A stretch of DNA of 64,000 bases from Spirochaetota bacterium (lineage in GTDB: Bacteria > Spirochaetota > UBA4802 > JAFGDQ01), in assembly GCA_034190085.1 (NCBI GenBank), contig JAXHTS010000030.1:62001-126000 (forward strand). Direction: 5' to 3'. Under the pieces are notes generated by a model that was not told where the DNA came from, ran no database searches, and was given only the letters and a program-made list of their open reading frames with translations. A program made the position numbers and the translations under genes. Shown here piece by piece: positions 16,838 through 24,190 of this stretch. Each line of letters begins with the position of its first letter. The stretch's first letter is position 1.

Positions 16838-17686
16838 TCAATAGGATAAGTATGCCCCATTGCCCTCTTTCCCTTTGGCTTTCAATTCCAAATGCAAAGA
16901 AAGCAATATGGATTCCATCACATCCTTGTTTACCTGTAGGCTATCAATAAAAGCCTCTTGGACAGAAGCTCCTATTGCCACAAGCTCGGCAATCATGAGT
17001 GTATGTCGAATAGAAACAATGATTGGCTCCTGTGTATTCCCTCTCAATTGATTAGCAATGTTTACAATAGTAAGCGCCTCAGCTTCATCAACACCTGTTT
17101 TCAAACTTAATACCTTTAACTCAATATCTGATGGCAGATAATCCATATACATACTATAAAATCTATCCCTCAACGCGGCATCCAGCATCTCAGTGCCTAC
17201 AAATTCATCTCCCTCATTGAGGGTTGCAAAAAATACCACCTCATCCGCAACCTTGATCAATCCTAATTCATCTATCCATACCTGTCTATCATCTGAAAGT
17301 ATTGAAAATAACATATTCAATGCCTTTGGATGCTCAGGACGGTTAATCTCCTCAAGATGAATCACACAACCTGGAGTCTGAATTGCCTGAGGAAAGAGAA
17401 ATTGCTGGTAATATGTCTCTCCATCCTTTAATCTATGGTCTCCAAATAATTGACCTGGCTCAGATAGAATACCAATTTGAAATGTAGCTAAACATCTATT
17501 ATTTTTTGCTGCAAACTGTCTAACCATAGTAGATTTGCCACATCCCTGTCTTCCGGTGACTAAGACATTAACTGGATGTTTTTTGGAAAGCACATCAATT
17601 CGGTCCAATGACTTTATCTCTTTTTCATTCAAGAAAAAGTTTTCCTCTGACTTCGGAATACTTGCTGATAAGTCTAATCCTTGCAT
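16838..17686 (-). CDS. MoxR-family AAA ATPase (NirQ/CbbQ-like)
   Basis: 282 residues with Walker A GRQGCGKST at about 45-53, Walker B CVIHLEEINRPEHPKALNML and the arginine-finger segment LDAALRDRFYSMYMDYLP. Members are remodelling ATPases that activate metalloenzymes, usually with a vWA partner such as NorD, CbbO or CoxE. No vWA gene adjoins; instead two zinc-ribbon selenoprotein genes lie directly upstream on the same strand, the nearer 74 bases away. GGGAG lies seven bases before the ATG. The neighbourhood suggests the selenoproteins are partners or substrates of the ATPase. Confidence 0.88.
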   Translation of the reverse strand: MQGLDLSASIPKSEENFFLNEKEIKSLDRIDVLSKKHPVNVLVTGRQGCGKSTMVRQFAAKNNRCLATFQIGILSEPGQLFGDHRLKDGETYYQQFLFPQAIQTPGCVIHLEEINRPEHPKALNMLFSILSDDRQVWIDELGLIKVADEVVFFATLNEGDEFVGTEMLDAALRDRFYSMYMDYLPSDIELKVLSLKTGVDEAEALTIVNIANQLRGNTQEPIIVSIRHTLMIAELVAIGASVQEAFIDSLQVNKDVMESILLSLHLELKAKGKEGNGAYLSY

Positions 17687-17760: not shown

Positions 17761-18102
17761 TTAACTGTAAAATAACTCACGTTGACGTTCAGTCAAGAAA
17801 TCCTCTAACTTAGGGTTATTATGTCTCATGTTTGCTCTTCTAAGTTCAGATATAATCTTCTTGGCTTCAGCTAGCGTATCACTGTCAGCCTCTTTTGTAA
17901 TAGCTGATAGTTTACGTGAGAGTTCAATCATATCCTCTATTTCTTCTCCAATCGCTTCGGGTTTATTTAGTATATTCCTTGCACCACACTGGGGGCACTC
18001 GCGCAGTTCACTGGCGCATGTAGCAGGTCACCCGGCAGGAGCAATAAACTTGAATTCACTATAATCGGCCTCATGCTCACATTTATCACACCTCAATTTC
18101 AT
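17761..18102 (-). CDS. Putative zinc-ribbon selenoprotein A (in-frame UGA at codon 25)
   Basis: The frame runs from an ATG with GGAGG upstream to TAA, 113 codons, interrupted only by TGA at 18030-18028. Reading TGA as Sec gives CxxC (5-8), AGUPAT (23-28), CPQC (36-39) and a helical C-terminal half ending RQRELFYS. Its neighbour at 18379-18720 has the same length, the same Sec position and about 55% identity (62/113, counted by hand). Downstream of the UGA the two genes differ at synonymous sites while the protein is kept, for example in the last ten codons, so translation past UGA is under selection. A hairpin starts 14 bases from the U of the UGA. Function is unknown; a redox-active Sec inside a zinc ribbon is plausible. 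Confidence 0.82.
18001..18017 (-). promoter_or_regulatory. Candidate SECIS hairpin for selenoprotein A
   Basis: Counting the U of UGA as 1, bases 14-20 (GCGCCAG) pair with 25-30 (CTGCGC), leaving a bulged C17 and a UGAA loop. A bulge near 17 and an apical loop near 21-25 match the geometry of the E. coli fdhF SECIS element bound by SelB. Confidence 0.6.
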
Positions 18103-18378
18103 ATTACACACCTCCCTCATTTTGAATAATATAAATAACAGGATGCTCCTTTGACTTTTTTTACATCACCTCATAGCAGCTATATCCTGTCAAATCAAAA
18201 ACATTTATAACCTCAATACTCAATTTGATTGACTATTTTGAATAATCTCATGTCTGCAAAATAACCTAGATTATAAAATACTTATCACACCCTTGAAAAA
18301 CAATAGGGGTTATTTCTTATCTATATATGTATTCTTACAAAATAATTAACATTAAACCCCTGATAAAAGATAAAATCC

Positions 18379-18720
18379 CTAACTGTAGAATAATTCACGT
18401 TGACGCTCTGTTAAGAATAGATCTAACCTCGGATTGTTATATCTCAGGTTTAATTCTCTCAGTTTAGAAATTATCCTCTTAGCCTCTGCCAGCATCTCAC
18501 TATCATCAGATTTAGATATTGATGCTAATATCTGGGAGAGTTCTATCATCTCATTCTCTTCTTCTTCTAATCCATCAGCCTTTAGCAGAGTACATAGATT
18601 CCCGCATTTGGGACACTCTCGGGTTACACCCGATCCAGTAGATGGTCATCCTGCTGTACAAAAATATTTAAATTCACCAATATCACTCTCATAATCACAA
18701 TTATCACATTTCATATTCAT
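18379..18720 (-). CDS. Putative zinc-ribbon selenoprotein B (in-frame UGA at codon 25)
   Basis: 113 codons from ATG to TAG with one TGA at 18648-18646. With Sec it reads CDNC (5-8), TAGUPST (22-28), ECPKCG (35-40), then a charged helical region and the same RQRELFYS ending as its paralogue. It carries extra cysteines at 21 and 43 and lacks Cys29 of copy A. There is no indel relative to copy A. The ribosome site is weak (AGGG). It lies 276 bases upstream of copy A, and both face the MoxR gene, so the three may form one operon, although each selenoprotein gene could have its own promoter. Confidence 0.82.
18619..18633 (-). promoter_or_regulatory. Candidate SECIS hairpin for selenoprotein B
   Basis: Bases 16-21 after the U of UGA (TCGGGT) pair perfectly with 25-30 (ACCCGA) around a GUA loop. 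The stem ends at +30, exactly as in copy A, although the sequence of the stem is different. Confidence 0.62.
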
Positions 18721-19183: not shown

Positions 19184-20425
19184 TTATGATGCCAGCTTTT
19201 CCACTGCTTCAGAAATCATCGACTTAATGGGAATCTTTTGTGGACATTTCGCTTCAGCTTCAGAATAATTGTTATTCATCAGTCCTCTTCGAATTTGAGC
19301 TGGAATTTTCGAAAAAAGGATTTTGGCCTTTTCCTGTTCATTATAGCTGTTATAATACATCAGATATCGCATTATATCGCTTATGTAAGGCGCAGCCTCA
19401 GACCAGTCGTCACTACAGATATCCGCACATCCAGCACAATAGTGATCGCAGGAAGATTTTGCATAATCCTTTAAAATGTCACGGTCTTTTCGACTAAGTC
19501 TCTTTTTATCAATAACCGCAGAGGCATTCGTGGTTATCATCGCAACGCTAGGCATAGTAACACAGGCTGAAGCAATACGACTATCATCCAGCACAACCTT
19601 TAACTTCGCCTGACCGTCAGTGTATCCCTTGACCCTGAATTTATTAATGAGCTTTCTATCATCATCAGAACTAATCTTTAGTCCCATAATCTTCATTGCA
19701 ATAAGCCCAATATCAGCCTTGTGACATGCCTCTATGGCTTCCTGCATTTCAGGGTTTTGCATTAACCGAAAATTATAGCTTGTCATAACAGCATCGATCC
19801 AATCCAACTTTGCTACAGCCATTAGGCATTTCGCCATGTTCTTATGAGTGCTTATTCCGAAGTGTCTAATCAGCTTTCTATTCTTTGCGCTAATAACCCA
19901 CTTCTTCAGATCATCAGTCAGGTCCGCCGGATCACTAAGAGCATGAATCCCATAATATAGATCGATATATTTTGTATTCATTCTTTTTAGAGACGTCTGG
20001 AGTCTGTTTTCAACTTCAGATATTGAACTTGCCCCTGAAGCCTTGCTAACTATAAAGATATCATCCCTCCTATCGGGATACTTAGTAAAAAATTTCCCCA
20101 CCCCAAGCTCGCTGTTACCCCCGGCGTAACCATGGGCAGTATCAATAAAGTTGATCCCCCACTTAAGGGCATTATGAATTACTATCTGGTTCTCAATAAG
20201 GTTATACATTATGCCATGTGAAAGACAGGGAACCTTCACATCTGTTTTGCCCAATCTTCGCTTCGGCACCTGGGGGTAACTGCCTTTTGATTCATCTGGA
20301 TATGCCTGTAGAACGATTTCAGGTTCCTTCTTGCATCCAGCAAGTGCAAAAGTAGAACCTAAACCAAAAGCTCCGATATTTATAATAAAATCCCTACGGT
20401 TTACGCCATTCCTTGGATTTTTCAT
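19184..20425 (-). CDS. Tat-exported aldo/keto reductase with C-terminal cysteine cluster
   Basis: The chosen ATG (MKNPRNGVNRRDF) has AAGGAG six bases upstream; two earlier in-frame ATGs lack one. A twin-arginine signal (NRRDF) runs into a hydrophobic stretch ending in the lipobox LAGC, so the protein is probably exported and lipid-anchored. The aldo/keto reductase barrel follows (RRLGKTDVKVPCLSHG, NFIDTAHGYAGGNSE, YIDLYYGIH). The C-terminus has CDHYCAGCADIC, a ferredoxin-like [4Fe-4S] site. It overlaps the preceding Fe-S membrane gene by 32 bases. Its substrate is unknown; its neighbours suggest it takes electrons from a membrane Fe-S protein. Confidence 0.85.
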   Translation of the reverse strand: MKNPRNGVNRRDFIINIGAFGLGSTFALAGCKKEPEIVLQAYPDESKGSYPQVPKRRLGKTDVKVPCLSHGIMYNLIENQIVIHNALKWGINFIDTAHGYAGGNSELGVGKFFTKYPDRRDDIFIVSKASGASSISEVENRLQTSLKRMNTKYIDLYYGIHALSDPADLTDDLKKWVISAKNRKLIRHFGISTHKNMAKCLMAVAKLDWIDAVMTSYNFRLMQNPEMQEAIEACHKADIGLIAMKIMGLKISSDDDRKLINKFRVKGYTDGQAKLKVVLDDSRIASACVTMPSVAMITTNASAVIDKKRLSRKDRDILKDYAKSSCDHYCAGCADICSDDWSEAAPYISDIMRYLMYYNSYNEQEKAKILFSKIPAQIRRGLMNNNYSEAEAKCPQKIPIKSMISEAVEKLAS

Positions 20426-22181
20426 TAGCATCTCCTTCATTTTTTTGTTTAAGCATTAATGACCTCTTTCTGCTTCTCGATTCACCAACACCTGAAACCC
20501 TTATTGCCCTCTTGCCGCTGACCGGGCATTCATGCTCGCAAATACCACATCCATTGCAATGTTGGATATCTATATAGGGCCTTTGAAGTCGAACCTGAAT
20601 TTCAACAAAATTTACATTGACCAGATTGTGCTCTATGCTTTGAGATAAGACAATTCTATTTTTTGTTTTATCAATTATTTTTTTCCGTTTTGTCCCTCTT
20701 ATTAAACAATAGTAATCCCCTGAAGCGATATTAGATGGTAAATTTGCATCATTTAATACCTCAATACTCCGATTCCCTATTTTTTCTGCAGTGATAACCC
20801 CTCCACGAATTGTTGCATATATCTCGTCAGTATATATTGCCTTTGGGCTTACAGGGCAGTTTTCCTGACATACAATACAGGGTATATCCATTGCCCATGG
20901 AAGACATCTTCCGCGGTCAATAAAGGCAGTACCTATTCTGATGAAACCTGTTTTTACAAATTTTCCCTTACCATGCTTTTCATCCAAAGTAATCGGTCTA
21001 ATCGCAGAAGTGGGGCATACCTGTCCACATGAGACACAATTGTATTGGCATCCACTTGATCCAATACGATTATTAAGTACAGGAGTCCAGAGATTTTCGA
21101 ATCCTCCTTCAATTCCACCGGGTTGAAGGACATTGGTTGGACATACACGTATACACTGACCGCATTTAATGCATCTCCTTACAAATTCTTGCTCCGATAG
21201 AGAACCTGGCGGACGAATAATCTTATGATGCCAGTTTTGCTCCAGGCTTCTGCTCAATCTTAAAGCAGGCATTACCAAAAGGCCGGTTCCAAGCGATAAA
21301 AGAAATCCCTTGCGTGAAATGCCAAAGGACGAGGTTTCTCCAGCGATTGAAGGCTTTATCTGATATTTGATTACGCCTTCTCCACAATCCTCACGACAAT
21401 TAAGGCATAAAATACATTCAGTTGTTCTTATTCTACTGTCAGGATTACACCCTCCCTCACAGGAAAGTTCACACTGCTTGCAGTTAATGCAGTTTTTTGT
21501 ACTCTGTCCAATCCTCCAGATGGAAAACCTGCTAAAGACTCCCAAAAGCGCGCCTAGAGGACATATAAATCTGCAATAAAAACGTGGAATTTTAAGATTC
21601 AGGAATAGGGCTGCTAGGAAAATTGAAAATATCATCCATATCTCTTCATAATATCTGCCTGCAATTGAGGTAATATTTATTCTGTTATCCAGAATCGGCA
21701 GCAAGACCAGATTGAACGAACGTGTTAAGAGCGGTATTGGATCGAGAAGCCCTGTATGCAAGGTTGAGGTGTGAATAGGGATCAGGGCTGTGATTATAAA
21801 GAGTAGAAGAATATAGTACTTAATATTTTGGGTTCTTCTATATCGATTCAGCGAAATCCTTTCTGAGGTAGGAGCATTTCTGTTGCACAGATATCCAATA
21901 GATTGATGTATAGAACCAAAGGGACATATCCATCCGCAGAAGAAGCGACCAAAAATAATTGTAAGCACAATAATCCCCAATGACCAGAGTAGAGGCCAGT
22001 ATAATTTATGGGTTGAAAGAATTGTGCCCAGCGCGACCAGGGGATCTAATTGAAGGAGCCATTCTATAGGCCATCCGCGTATCTGCCAAAATTTCTCTCC
22101 CACTGTGCTGACGATACAGAACCAGAGAAAAAGCAGAAAAAAGAATGATTGACTTATCCTTCTTACTGTTATTAGTTTCAT
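20394..22181 (-). CDS. NapH/NosR-like membrane protein with multiple ferredoxin domains
   Basis: 595 residues. Five or so membrane segments in the first 210 residues include the NapH-type motifs FCGWICPFGS and FYCRFICPLGA. Four or more ferredoxin-type clusters follow: CINCKQCELSCEGGC, CILCLNCREDC, CIKCGQCIRVCP, CVSCGQVCP, CIVCQENCP and, near the end, CNGCGICEHECP. A second RKGFLLSLGTG hydrophobic segment lies near residue 290 and looks like an embedded Tat-type element. It is presumably a membrane electron conduit from quinol to the exported aldo/keto reductase encoded next. Confidence 0.85.
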   Translation of the reverse strand: MKLITVRRISQSFFFLLFLWFCIVSTVGEKFWQIRGWPIEWLLQLDPLVALGTILSTHKLYWPLLWSLGIIVLTIIFGRFFCGWICPFGSIHQSIGYLCNRNAPTSERISLNRYRRTQNIKYYILLLFIITALIPIHTSTLHTGLLDPIPLLTRSFNLVLLPILDNRINITSIAGRYYEEIWMIFSIFLAALFLNLKIPRFYCRFICPLGALLGVFSRFSIWRIGQSTKNCINCKQCELSCEGGCNPDSRIRTTECILCLNCREDCGEGVIKYQIKPSIAGETSSFGISRKGFLLSLGTGLLVMPALRLSRSLEQNWHHKIIRPPGSLSEQEFVRRCIKCGQCIRVCPTNVLQPGGIEGGFENLWTPVLNNRIGSSGCQYNCVSCGQVCPTSAIRPITLDEKHGKGKFVKTGFIRIGTAFIDRGRCLPWAMDIPCIVCQENCPVSPKAIYTDEIYATIRGGVITAEKIGNRSIEVLNDANLPSNIASGDYYCLIRGTKRKKIIDKTKNRIVLSQSIEHNLVNVNFVEIQVRLQRPYIDIQHCNGCGICEHECPVSGKRAIRVSGVGESRSRKRSLMLKQKNEGDANEKSKEWRKP

Positions 22182-22188
22182 AGATGTT

Positions 22189-23184
22189 TTAGCTTGAATT
22201 AACGAATATTGGCTTCAGAGAATGATAATCGGATGTTCCGACTCCAGCCATTTCAGCCTTAATAATATGTGGCAATTCGACTTTACTTAAACCCAAAAGA
22301 CCAGAGCCAAATGAATCTGCAGCTACCTGATCACAACTTACAATAAGGGTTTCCATTGATTTCAAATCCGAAATTGAACCACCCGTTGGACCGTTATTCA
22401 TCATAACGTAGGTGCCATCCAACACGACCAAGGTTGGCCGCACTAGCTGTGACAGCTCCGAAATAATTGTGTGAATATCCTGATGAAAGATGTTGCGTCT
22501 TCCTCCCAAGAGACCATACCAATTTTTCATAATCATCGAAGCGCCGCTTCTGTGATGTGATTTTATTGGAGCAACACCAATCAGCTTATCGGCCTTGATT
22601 AATGGATCAAAAAACACAGGCCATTCGTGGATTAATCTGCCATTTTCAAGACTGGTGTATTTAAAGAAAGCCTCTTTAGGAAGGATGATTTGAGCGCCTG
22701 ATTCTTGAGCGGCCTTCTCAATGCCACTAAGATAAAAGCAGCTTGCAGGGGCATTAATGGGATTGTCTAAAATGATGACCGCTCTTGCTCTGGCTTTAAA
22801 ACATAGACGAACAAGCGCTGAGATTAGATGTGGGTGACTCGTTGCGCCCAGCTCAGGTGAGGATGCAAAGGCGACATTAGGTTTTATCGCTACGGTCTCA
22901 CCCTGTTTCACAAAACGCTCAATACCCCCAAGGAGCTTAATCGCCCTTTCCAACCCATCTCCCCGATTAAAGCCCCTGACAACGCACATCGTCTTTCCAC
23001 TAATAGGATTTACAGAAAAATTTGGGAGAGTGACAAGATCCTGGTATATTTCATCCCCACTCGGGCCATAGGGATCATATAAAAGGTAAGATGCTGCTCC
23101 AGCGAAAGCAATTGATACGCAGGCCTTTAGCGAGCGATTTATAAATTCCCTTCGCAGGATATTATCCCCTTCTCTTTTTACCAT
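22189..23184 (-). CDS. DUF362 family protein with N-terminal signal anchor
   Basis: 331 residues. A Tat-like LRREFINRSLKAC start and a hydrophobic segment (residues 19-34) indicate export or anchoring. The DUF362 core is seen in ETVAIKPNVAFASSPELGATSHP, KSHHRSGASMIMKNWYGLLGGRR and VVLDGTYVMMNNGPTGG. DUF362 proteins often occur beside Fe-S membrane proteins; their reaction is not known. It ends seven bases before the Fe-S gene and overlaps the DUF6599-like gene by 23 bases, so the four genes form a tight operon. Confidence 0.85.
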   Translation of the reverse strand: MVKREGDNILRREFINRSLKACVSIAFAGAASYLLYDPYGPSGDEIYQDLVTLPNFSVNPISGKTMCVVRGFNRGDGLERAIKLLGGIERFVKQGETVAIKPNVAFASSPELGATSHPHLISALVRLCFKARARAVIILDNPINAPASCFYLSGIEKAAQESGAQIILPKEAFFKYTSLENGRLIHEWPVFFDPLIKADKLIGVAPIKSHHRSGASMIMKNWYGLLGGRRNIFHQDIHTIISELSQLVRPTLVVLDGTYVMMNNGPTGGSISDLKSMETLIVSCDQVAADSFGSGLLGLSKVELPHIIKAEMAGVGTSDYHSLKPIFVNSS

Positions 23185-24190
23185 CTACCTGATCCGCATC
23201 CTTGATTTCTCCCAAAATAATCCTGAGCAATCTTTCAGCCAGCCTTTGGTTGTCTGCTCCATGTACACCAATCACAAAATTTCTATAGATACTAATAGTT
23301 TCAAATGATCCATATATATCAATTATTTTAGAACCTTTAATATCATTCGCCCTTAGAGGAACACCCCCGTTGTCAATTAGAAATTTGTAGTATCCATCCG
23401 CTAAATCAGCGGCCTCCTTATGGCTATCCCTAATACTGAAAAAAACCGTTGTTGTAGAGTCATCAAGCCTGTAACTTGCGGAAAAGACATTGGTAAATTT
23501 ATTATAACCAAAGGCATCCTTCAGAAATAATCTCTCACTCCCTGGGATGAGATAATCCTTGTCAAACAGGGTTAGTTCATATATTTCTTCACTACCGGTA
23601 GATTTTAGCCTTGACCTAATATTTCTACCCGTTTCAATTATCCCCTGCTTAAGATGATTAGAAATTGATGCACCAATAATCTCAATATAATATCTTCCCT
23701 GAATAAAAAAAAGGGCGCTCGATGCCCAGTATGCTTTGCTAAAATTTGCAACCCTCTCTGTATCGATTCTTTTTTGGCGGCTATAGACCGAATATGCATT
23801 TTTAATTGTACCCATATCATAGATAAATGCCTCCATCCAAATGTCCTTGGAACTAGCATACATGAATCGTTGAGAGATCATTAGCCTGAATCCAGAGTCT
23901 AAATAGAGGGGAGCCTTGCCATTTATCTTCTCATGCAGTGTATTCTGATTATACGCTTCAGGTTCTAATAGAACCTTAAATCCCCTAGCTGTAAGGGTAT
24001 CCATTTTTAGATTGCCCAGCGATATTAGTGATTCTTTATTATTATTTCCACCTGGTGATATCATGCCAAATTTACTAATATCATAACTGGATTGCCTTGC
24101 TATCACTACAACCGCTATAATACCTAAAATGGATAATAGAAAGAAGCTGATGATGGATTCTTGGTTTTGTTTAATATATTTTATCTGCAT
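23162..24190 (-). CDS. Membrane-anchored DUF6599-like protein
   Basis: 342 residues with one N-terminal membrane segment (about 13-31) and a soluble remainder, likely extracytoplasmic. Features such as KAPLYLDSGFRLMISQRF, YDMGTIKNAYSVYSRQKR and SALFFIQGRYYIEI resemble DUF6599, a family found beside DUF362 and Fe-S proteins. The assignment is by eye. It is the first gene of the four-gene minus-strand cluster. Confidence 0.6.
   Translation of the reverse strand: MQIKYIKQNQESIISFFLLSILGIIAVVVIARQSSYDISKFGMISPGGNNNKESLISLGNLKMDTLTARGFKVLLEPEAYNQNTLHEKINGKAPLYLDSGFRLMISQRFMYASSKDIWMEAFIYDMGTIKNAYSVYSRQKRIDTERVANFSKAYWASSALFFIQGRYYIEIIGASISNHLKQGIIETGRNIRSRLKSTGSEEIYELTLFDKDYLIPGSERLFLKDAFGYNKFTNVFSASYRLDDSTTTVFFSIRDSHKEAADLADGYYKFLIDNGGVPLRANDIKGSKIIDIYGSFETISIYRNFVIGVHGADNQRLAERLLRIILGEIKDADQVDGKKRRG

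Follow-up and report, generated by a model that had tools for sequence, protein, structure and literature searches.

Two adjacent genes in the window (the whole 64,000-nucleotide stretch of DNA that was analysed) each carry an in-frame UGA at codon 25, raising the question of whether this codon ends translation or is decoded as selenocysteine (Sec) and, in the latter case, whether the products belong to a selenoprotein family that has already been catalogued. Such a pair had been claimed in an earlier note (113 codons each, UGA at codon 25, about 55% gapless identity), and the coordinates, lengths and alignment were reproduced; both genes lie on the minus strand, which that note had left out. 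The pair (G1 and G2) and the gene downstream of it are laid out as follows, with positions given in the window:

18379–18720, minus strand: G1, 113-codon predicted selenoprotein gene, very probable UGA-Sec codon 25, stop TAG
18646–18648, minus strand: in-frame UGA of G1 (very probable Sec codon)
18607–18645, minus strand: SECIS-like hairpin region of G1, 6-bp stem UCGGGU/ACCCGA, loop GUA from 19 nt past the UGA
17761–18102, minus strand: G2, 113-codon paralogue of G1, very probable UGA-Sec codon 25, stop TAA
18028–18030, minus strand: in-frame UGA of G2 (very probable Sec codon)
17989–18027, minus strand: SECIS-like hairpin region of G2, apical loop from 18 nt past the UGA
16838–17686, minus strand: MoxR-family AAA+ ATPase (AAA_5 and CbbQ_C domains, GvpN/NorQ-like), 74 nt downstream of G2

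The translations of G1 (from MNMKCDNC to ELFYS, with TAGUPS around the UGA) and G2 (from MKLRCDKC to ELFYS, with PAGUPA) align without a gap and share 62 of 113 residues (55%). In G1, a first CxxC pair (C5, C8) precedes the Sec position (U25) and a second (C36, C39) follows it, ahead of predicted helices at residues 49–112. The genes stand in tandem with a spacer of 276 nt, and the ribosome-binding site of G2 is a strong Shine-Dalgarno sequence (gagggaggtg).

Paralogues and selection past the UGA

The genome that holds the window (4.27 Mb in 86 contigs, 96% complete) was itself searched with G1, and two further full-length paralogues were recovered on other contigs (C23:89495-89830 and C5:14380-14718), each with a single UGA and no other stop. 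When the four paralogues (G1, G2 and the copies on contigs C23 and C5) were aligned, the UGA occupied one column in all of them; the cysteines C5, C8, C36 and C39 and most of the C-terminal tail were invariant, the tail (FLTERQRELFYS) being conserved in the selenoprotein family, and the residues preceding U varied (TAGU, PAGU, SASU and PPTU). A fifth relative of 115 aa, encoded on contig C1, has neither a UGA nor a Cys at the Sec column (hhalign E 1.1e-10, 101 columns).

Synonymous changes had been said to dominate 3' of the UGA, and this was borne out in every one of the six pairs that the four paralogues form (pS 0.69–0.90 vs pN 0.23–0.36). The excess of pS over pN also held in all six pairs for codons 49–113 alone, and dN was far smaller than dS both before and after the UGA. 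All four UGA-containing paralogues are under purifying selection beyond the UGA. Furthermore, the second metal knuckle lies 3' of the UGA, so that a 24-residue product would be unable to form the ribbon.

Decoding of the UGA codon

The four genes of the Sec machinery named in the earlier note (selA, selB, selC and selD) are all present in the same genome. A tRNA-Sec with a UCA anticodon is followed by selA, assigned by reading of its translation, and selB (SelB match, 312.8 bits), all on contig C50, and SelD is encoded on contig C49 (380 bits), its gene carrying a UGA of its own at the canonical GAGU site. The selD gene (C49, 117329-118249) shows a clear hairpin with a 9-bp stem and the loop GGA after the UGA of this catalytic site; genes of the desulfurase-like and TusA/YedF types precede it on the contig.

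The apical loop of bacterial SECIS elements lies about 16–37 nt from the UGA, and the position and shape of these elements count more than their sequence, such that a missing column alignment is usual. RNA folding placed a hairpin in each of the four UGA paralogues (-8.8 to -9.8 kcal/mol), with loops starting 19, 18, 16 and 19 nt past the UGA; the hairpin of selD in the same genome has its loop start at +18 (-10.1 kcal/mol), and the corresponding position in the UGA-less paralogue reached only -3.7 kcal/mol and lacks a SECIS-like hairpin. The lowest-energy 39-nt segment of each UGA gene lies at +9 or +12 nt past the UGA, and synonymous-codon shuffles gave a combined p = 0.002. Column-wise covariation of the four hairpins was tested and is absent, because their registers differ.

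Cys homologues at position 25, which the earlier note had regarded as decisive, gave weak support at most: the nearest full-length paralogue has no Cys there, and two FeoB-linked ribbons from two distant genomes (L020 and L067) are weak positives. In both, a loop Cys precedes the second knuckle by 11 residues, just as the Sec does in G1 and G2, and they were aligned to the UGA family with an hhalign probability of 95.7% over 40 columns. They share with G1 and G2 the two CxxC knuckles and the loop residue at this spacing, but are short (~57–64 aa), have extra loop cysteines, lack a helical domain and adjoin feoB. They are the only Cys-for-Sec support, and a weak one; the searches found no full-length homologue outside this genome, and so no Cys orthologue across species. 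The two ribbons are Cys-rich (two CxxC and three loop cysteines) and sit directly downstream of feoB, and the L020 ribbon (1501–1692) is located upstream of a metal-dependent repressor/FeoA-like gene.

Two other readings of the codon were weighed. If the UGA were a true stop, the genes would be pseudogenes or would encode a 24-residue peptide, with the downstream frame decayed or separately translated. Readthrough is deduced from sequence, and the copy on contig C23 has an ATG four codons past the UGA at which translation could restart, but neither G1 nor G2 has a conserved internal start, the metal site depends on a second knuckle that is encoded past the UGA, and purifying selection extends to codon 113 in all six pairs. 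The UGA is also never swapped for UAA or UAG, and the genome has the Sec machinery and the SECIS-like hairpins. The earlier note had argued that a pseudogene would not be kept twice in the same way; the UGA column has here been kept four times, and termination at codon 25 is very improbable. Readthrough alone does not fix which residue is inserted, and the codon might stand for Trp or Gly through code reassignment or near-cognate suppression. Yet UGA terminates many ordinary genes in the window and on nearby contigs, and this normal use as a stop elsewhere in the genome excludes a general code change; the UGA of selD, moreover, falls at a canonical Sec/Cys position, a tRNA-Sec with a UCA anticodon is present and the hairpins lie at the SECIS position, which leaves insertion of another residue with the smallest probability of all.

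The UGA in four paralogues, the selection past it, the hairpins and the Sec machinery together therefore make G1 and G2 very probably selenoproteins, and decoding of the UGA as Sec in this family is close to certain.

Relation to catalogued families and distribution

An inventory from 2026 lists 119 selenoprotein families or subfamilies, in which the small proteins with CxxC and Sec are NF041197 (OS_HP3 with RxU; DW with GxU) and DG (PMC13188914); DW was first predicted by deep-Sep (PMC12013277). No NCBIfam selenoprotein model matched above its cut-off. The NF041197 profile had no match to G1 or to the copies on contigs C23 and C5, and matched G2 at 10.3 bits (cut-off 40) with only the first-knuckle region aligned; no member of NF041197 over the cut-off was found in the phylum. 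NF041197 resembles G1 and G2 in its small size, two CxxC pairs and one predicted Sec (in an RxU or GxU motif), whereas its profile is shorter (53 positions), its knuckles are apparently more tightly spaced (CxxC pairs ~14–16 residues apart, judged from the weak match L068, vs 27 in G1 and G2) and it has no helical domain. NF049953 (DG) is likewise a zinc-ribbon protein predicted to be a bacterial selenoprotein, but is 172 positions long and has a GUxG motif, and none of the four UGA proteins matched it.

The family could in principle belong, as a divergent branch, to the NF041197 dual CXXC motif small (seleno)proteins, the AGU of G1 and G2 corresponding to the GxU of DW, given that both groups comprise small proteins with two CxxC and one Sec, that G2 touches the profile at 10.3 bits and that DW with its GxU is filed under NF041197 in the inventory. 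However, three of the four paralogues lack any match and G2 remains far from the cut-off of 40, the knuckle spacing differs (~14–16 vs 27), the 53 positions leave no room for a helical domain, and the residues before U are not conserved across the four paralogues, all of which make such a descent improbable. Judged by profile score and description, the family is probably separate from DW and OS_HP3. The earlier suggestion of an unreported type holds in that the proteins fall below the NF041197 and NCBIfam cut-offs and no tested inventory entry fits, but not for the general kind, as ribbons with paired CxxC and Sec are known (NF041197, NF049953). G1 and G2 would thus in all likelihood be real UGA-Sec selenoproteins from an as yet uncatalogued family.

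Protein-pattern scans of 84,980 GTDB species genomes, for which either G1 or the four-member alignment served as the query, detected no full-length relative outside this genome, and full-length relatives were also absent from 59 near relatives and 393 genomes of the phylum. Plasmids and phages searched by tblastn held no relative. The single match on a viral contig (L019) was rejected as an ordinary zinc ribbon without UGA, and the weak matches in the 393 phylum genomes, L020 aside, were mostly stop-containing or located inside long unrelated frames. By these sequence searches the four-paralogue family is seen so far only in this genome. Because it is lineage-restricted, short and without close Cys homologues, the family tends to escape homology-based searches, and if correctly identified it adds to the bacterial selenoproteome.

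Predicted fold, genomic neighbours and a candidate role

The AlphaFold model (mean pLDDT 80) consists of a small ribbon (residues 1–45) and three well-predicted helices (49–112), with the Sec loop (25–27) below pLDDT 50; the N-terminal half is predicted to be a rubredoxin/zinc-ribbon domain and the C-terminal half a three-helix domain. The two CxxC knuckles are 27 residues apart and should hold one metal ion, putatively Fe or Zn, with the Sec in the loop between them as an extra, non-knuckle residue. This arrangement would place Sec beside an intact metal site and not in place of a knuckle cysteine.

Foldseek returned no significant match in the PDB. A profile search gave MasE (9o8u_D) as the top PDB sequence match (E 5e-4, residues 3–46), a modest match to the ribbon only, and short Cys ribbons are prone to chance matches. 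MasE (MASS delta) is a rubredoxin-like subunit of 1-methylalkylsuccinate synthase that binds one Fe by Cys3, Cys6, Cys32 and Cys35 and whose tail contacts the glycyl-radical domain of the alkane-activating enzyme (PMC12358834). MasE is like G1 and G2 in having two CxxC knuckles with a long loop in a single-metal ribbon (predicted in G1 and G2), but its loop has neither Sec nor Cys and it ends in a ~20-residue tail where G1 and G2 have the three-helix domain. The same genome encodes UGA-less, MasE-like short ribbons upstream of an 829-aa glycyl radical enzyme (contig C45) and beside two activases (contig C35), which matched the UGA-family profile with 96.8% probability. In the stretches read around the four UGA genes (G1/G2, C23 and C5), no glycyl radical enzyme or activase was found. 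Given the MasE match and the MasE-like ribbons beside radical-enzyme genes, the selenoprotein ribbon looks related to a glycyl-radical-enzyme accessory module, and sequence comparison somewhat favours its membership in a MasE-related ribbon lineage.

The genome contains 33 PFL-like glycyl radical enzyme matches in its 4.27 Mb, or ~30 such radical-enzyme genes. This unusually large expansion is spread over C64, C67, C79, C52, C66, C4, C45 and other contigs, and many of its members stand in tandem on C64. In the locus at 2010–6308 on C45 (L037, C45:1-13000), two FMN-binding-like genes and two genes for MasE-like ribbons (79 and ~60 aa) lie upstream of the glycyl radical enzyme gene, and the locus looks like a variant of the X-succinate-synthase type.

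G1, G2 and the MoxR gene probably form an operon. CbbQ-type MoxR ATPases help to load metals or remodel enzymes. The same is described for NorQ-type MoxR ATPases (PMC9976466). Among the 59 relatives, no orthologue of the window's MoxR was found at E 1e-20 or better, and the sole other close MoxR in the genome is a 59%-identical paralogue on C75, located beside a MoaD-like gene and without a ribbon gene. At that locus (L065, 7977–9810), the MoaD/ThiS-like gene and a 173-aa gene lie upstream of the MoxR paralogue. The copy on contig C5 occurs within a run in the order TusA, DsrE, NifS, IscU, the UGA gene, a Grx/TrxR fusion, a flavodiiron protein and flavodoxin (TusA, DsrE and flavodoxin assigned by reading of translations), and the copy on C23 is isolated, without a cluster. 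The three contexts (MoxR, FeS/thiol redox and the isolated C23 copy) differ and do not single out one function; their common denominator is thiol redox and metal/sulfur handling.

A role in maturation or repair is put forward tentatively, with partner and chemistry inferred. The two knuckles would bind one Fe or Zn to form a rigid docking base, and the loop between them would present a mobile selenol; in three of the four proteins, a Cys lies within four residues of the Sec. The helical domain and the conserved tail may recognise and bind a partner, and the selenol could then carry out thiol/selenol redox or a sulfur or metal hand-over on a client enzyme. Clients might be anaerobic metalloenzymes or glycyl-radical enzymes during maturation or repair. 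In this scheme G1 and G2 would act together with the MoxR ATPase, and the C5 copy would act alongside the NifS-IscU/glutaredoxin-thioredoxin reductase cluster. A more specific history, in which an accessory rubredoxin-like subunit of a glycyl-radical enzyme gained a selenol and a helical adaptor and was then duplicated for several maturation or repair systems, is rather unlikely; if true, it would tie selenium to radical-enzyme upkeep in an anaerobe with ~30 glycyl radical enzymes. More broadly, the family hints that selenium, MoxR ATPases, Fe-S/persulfide relays and glycyl-radical enzymes may be connected.

Elsewhere in the window, a four-gene run on the minus strand (19184–24190) encodes an aldo/keto reductase with a Tat-like start, a NapH-like membrane 4Fe-4S protein, a DUF362 protein and a 342-aa protein, and looks like an exported electron-transfer unit.
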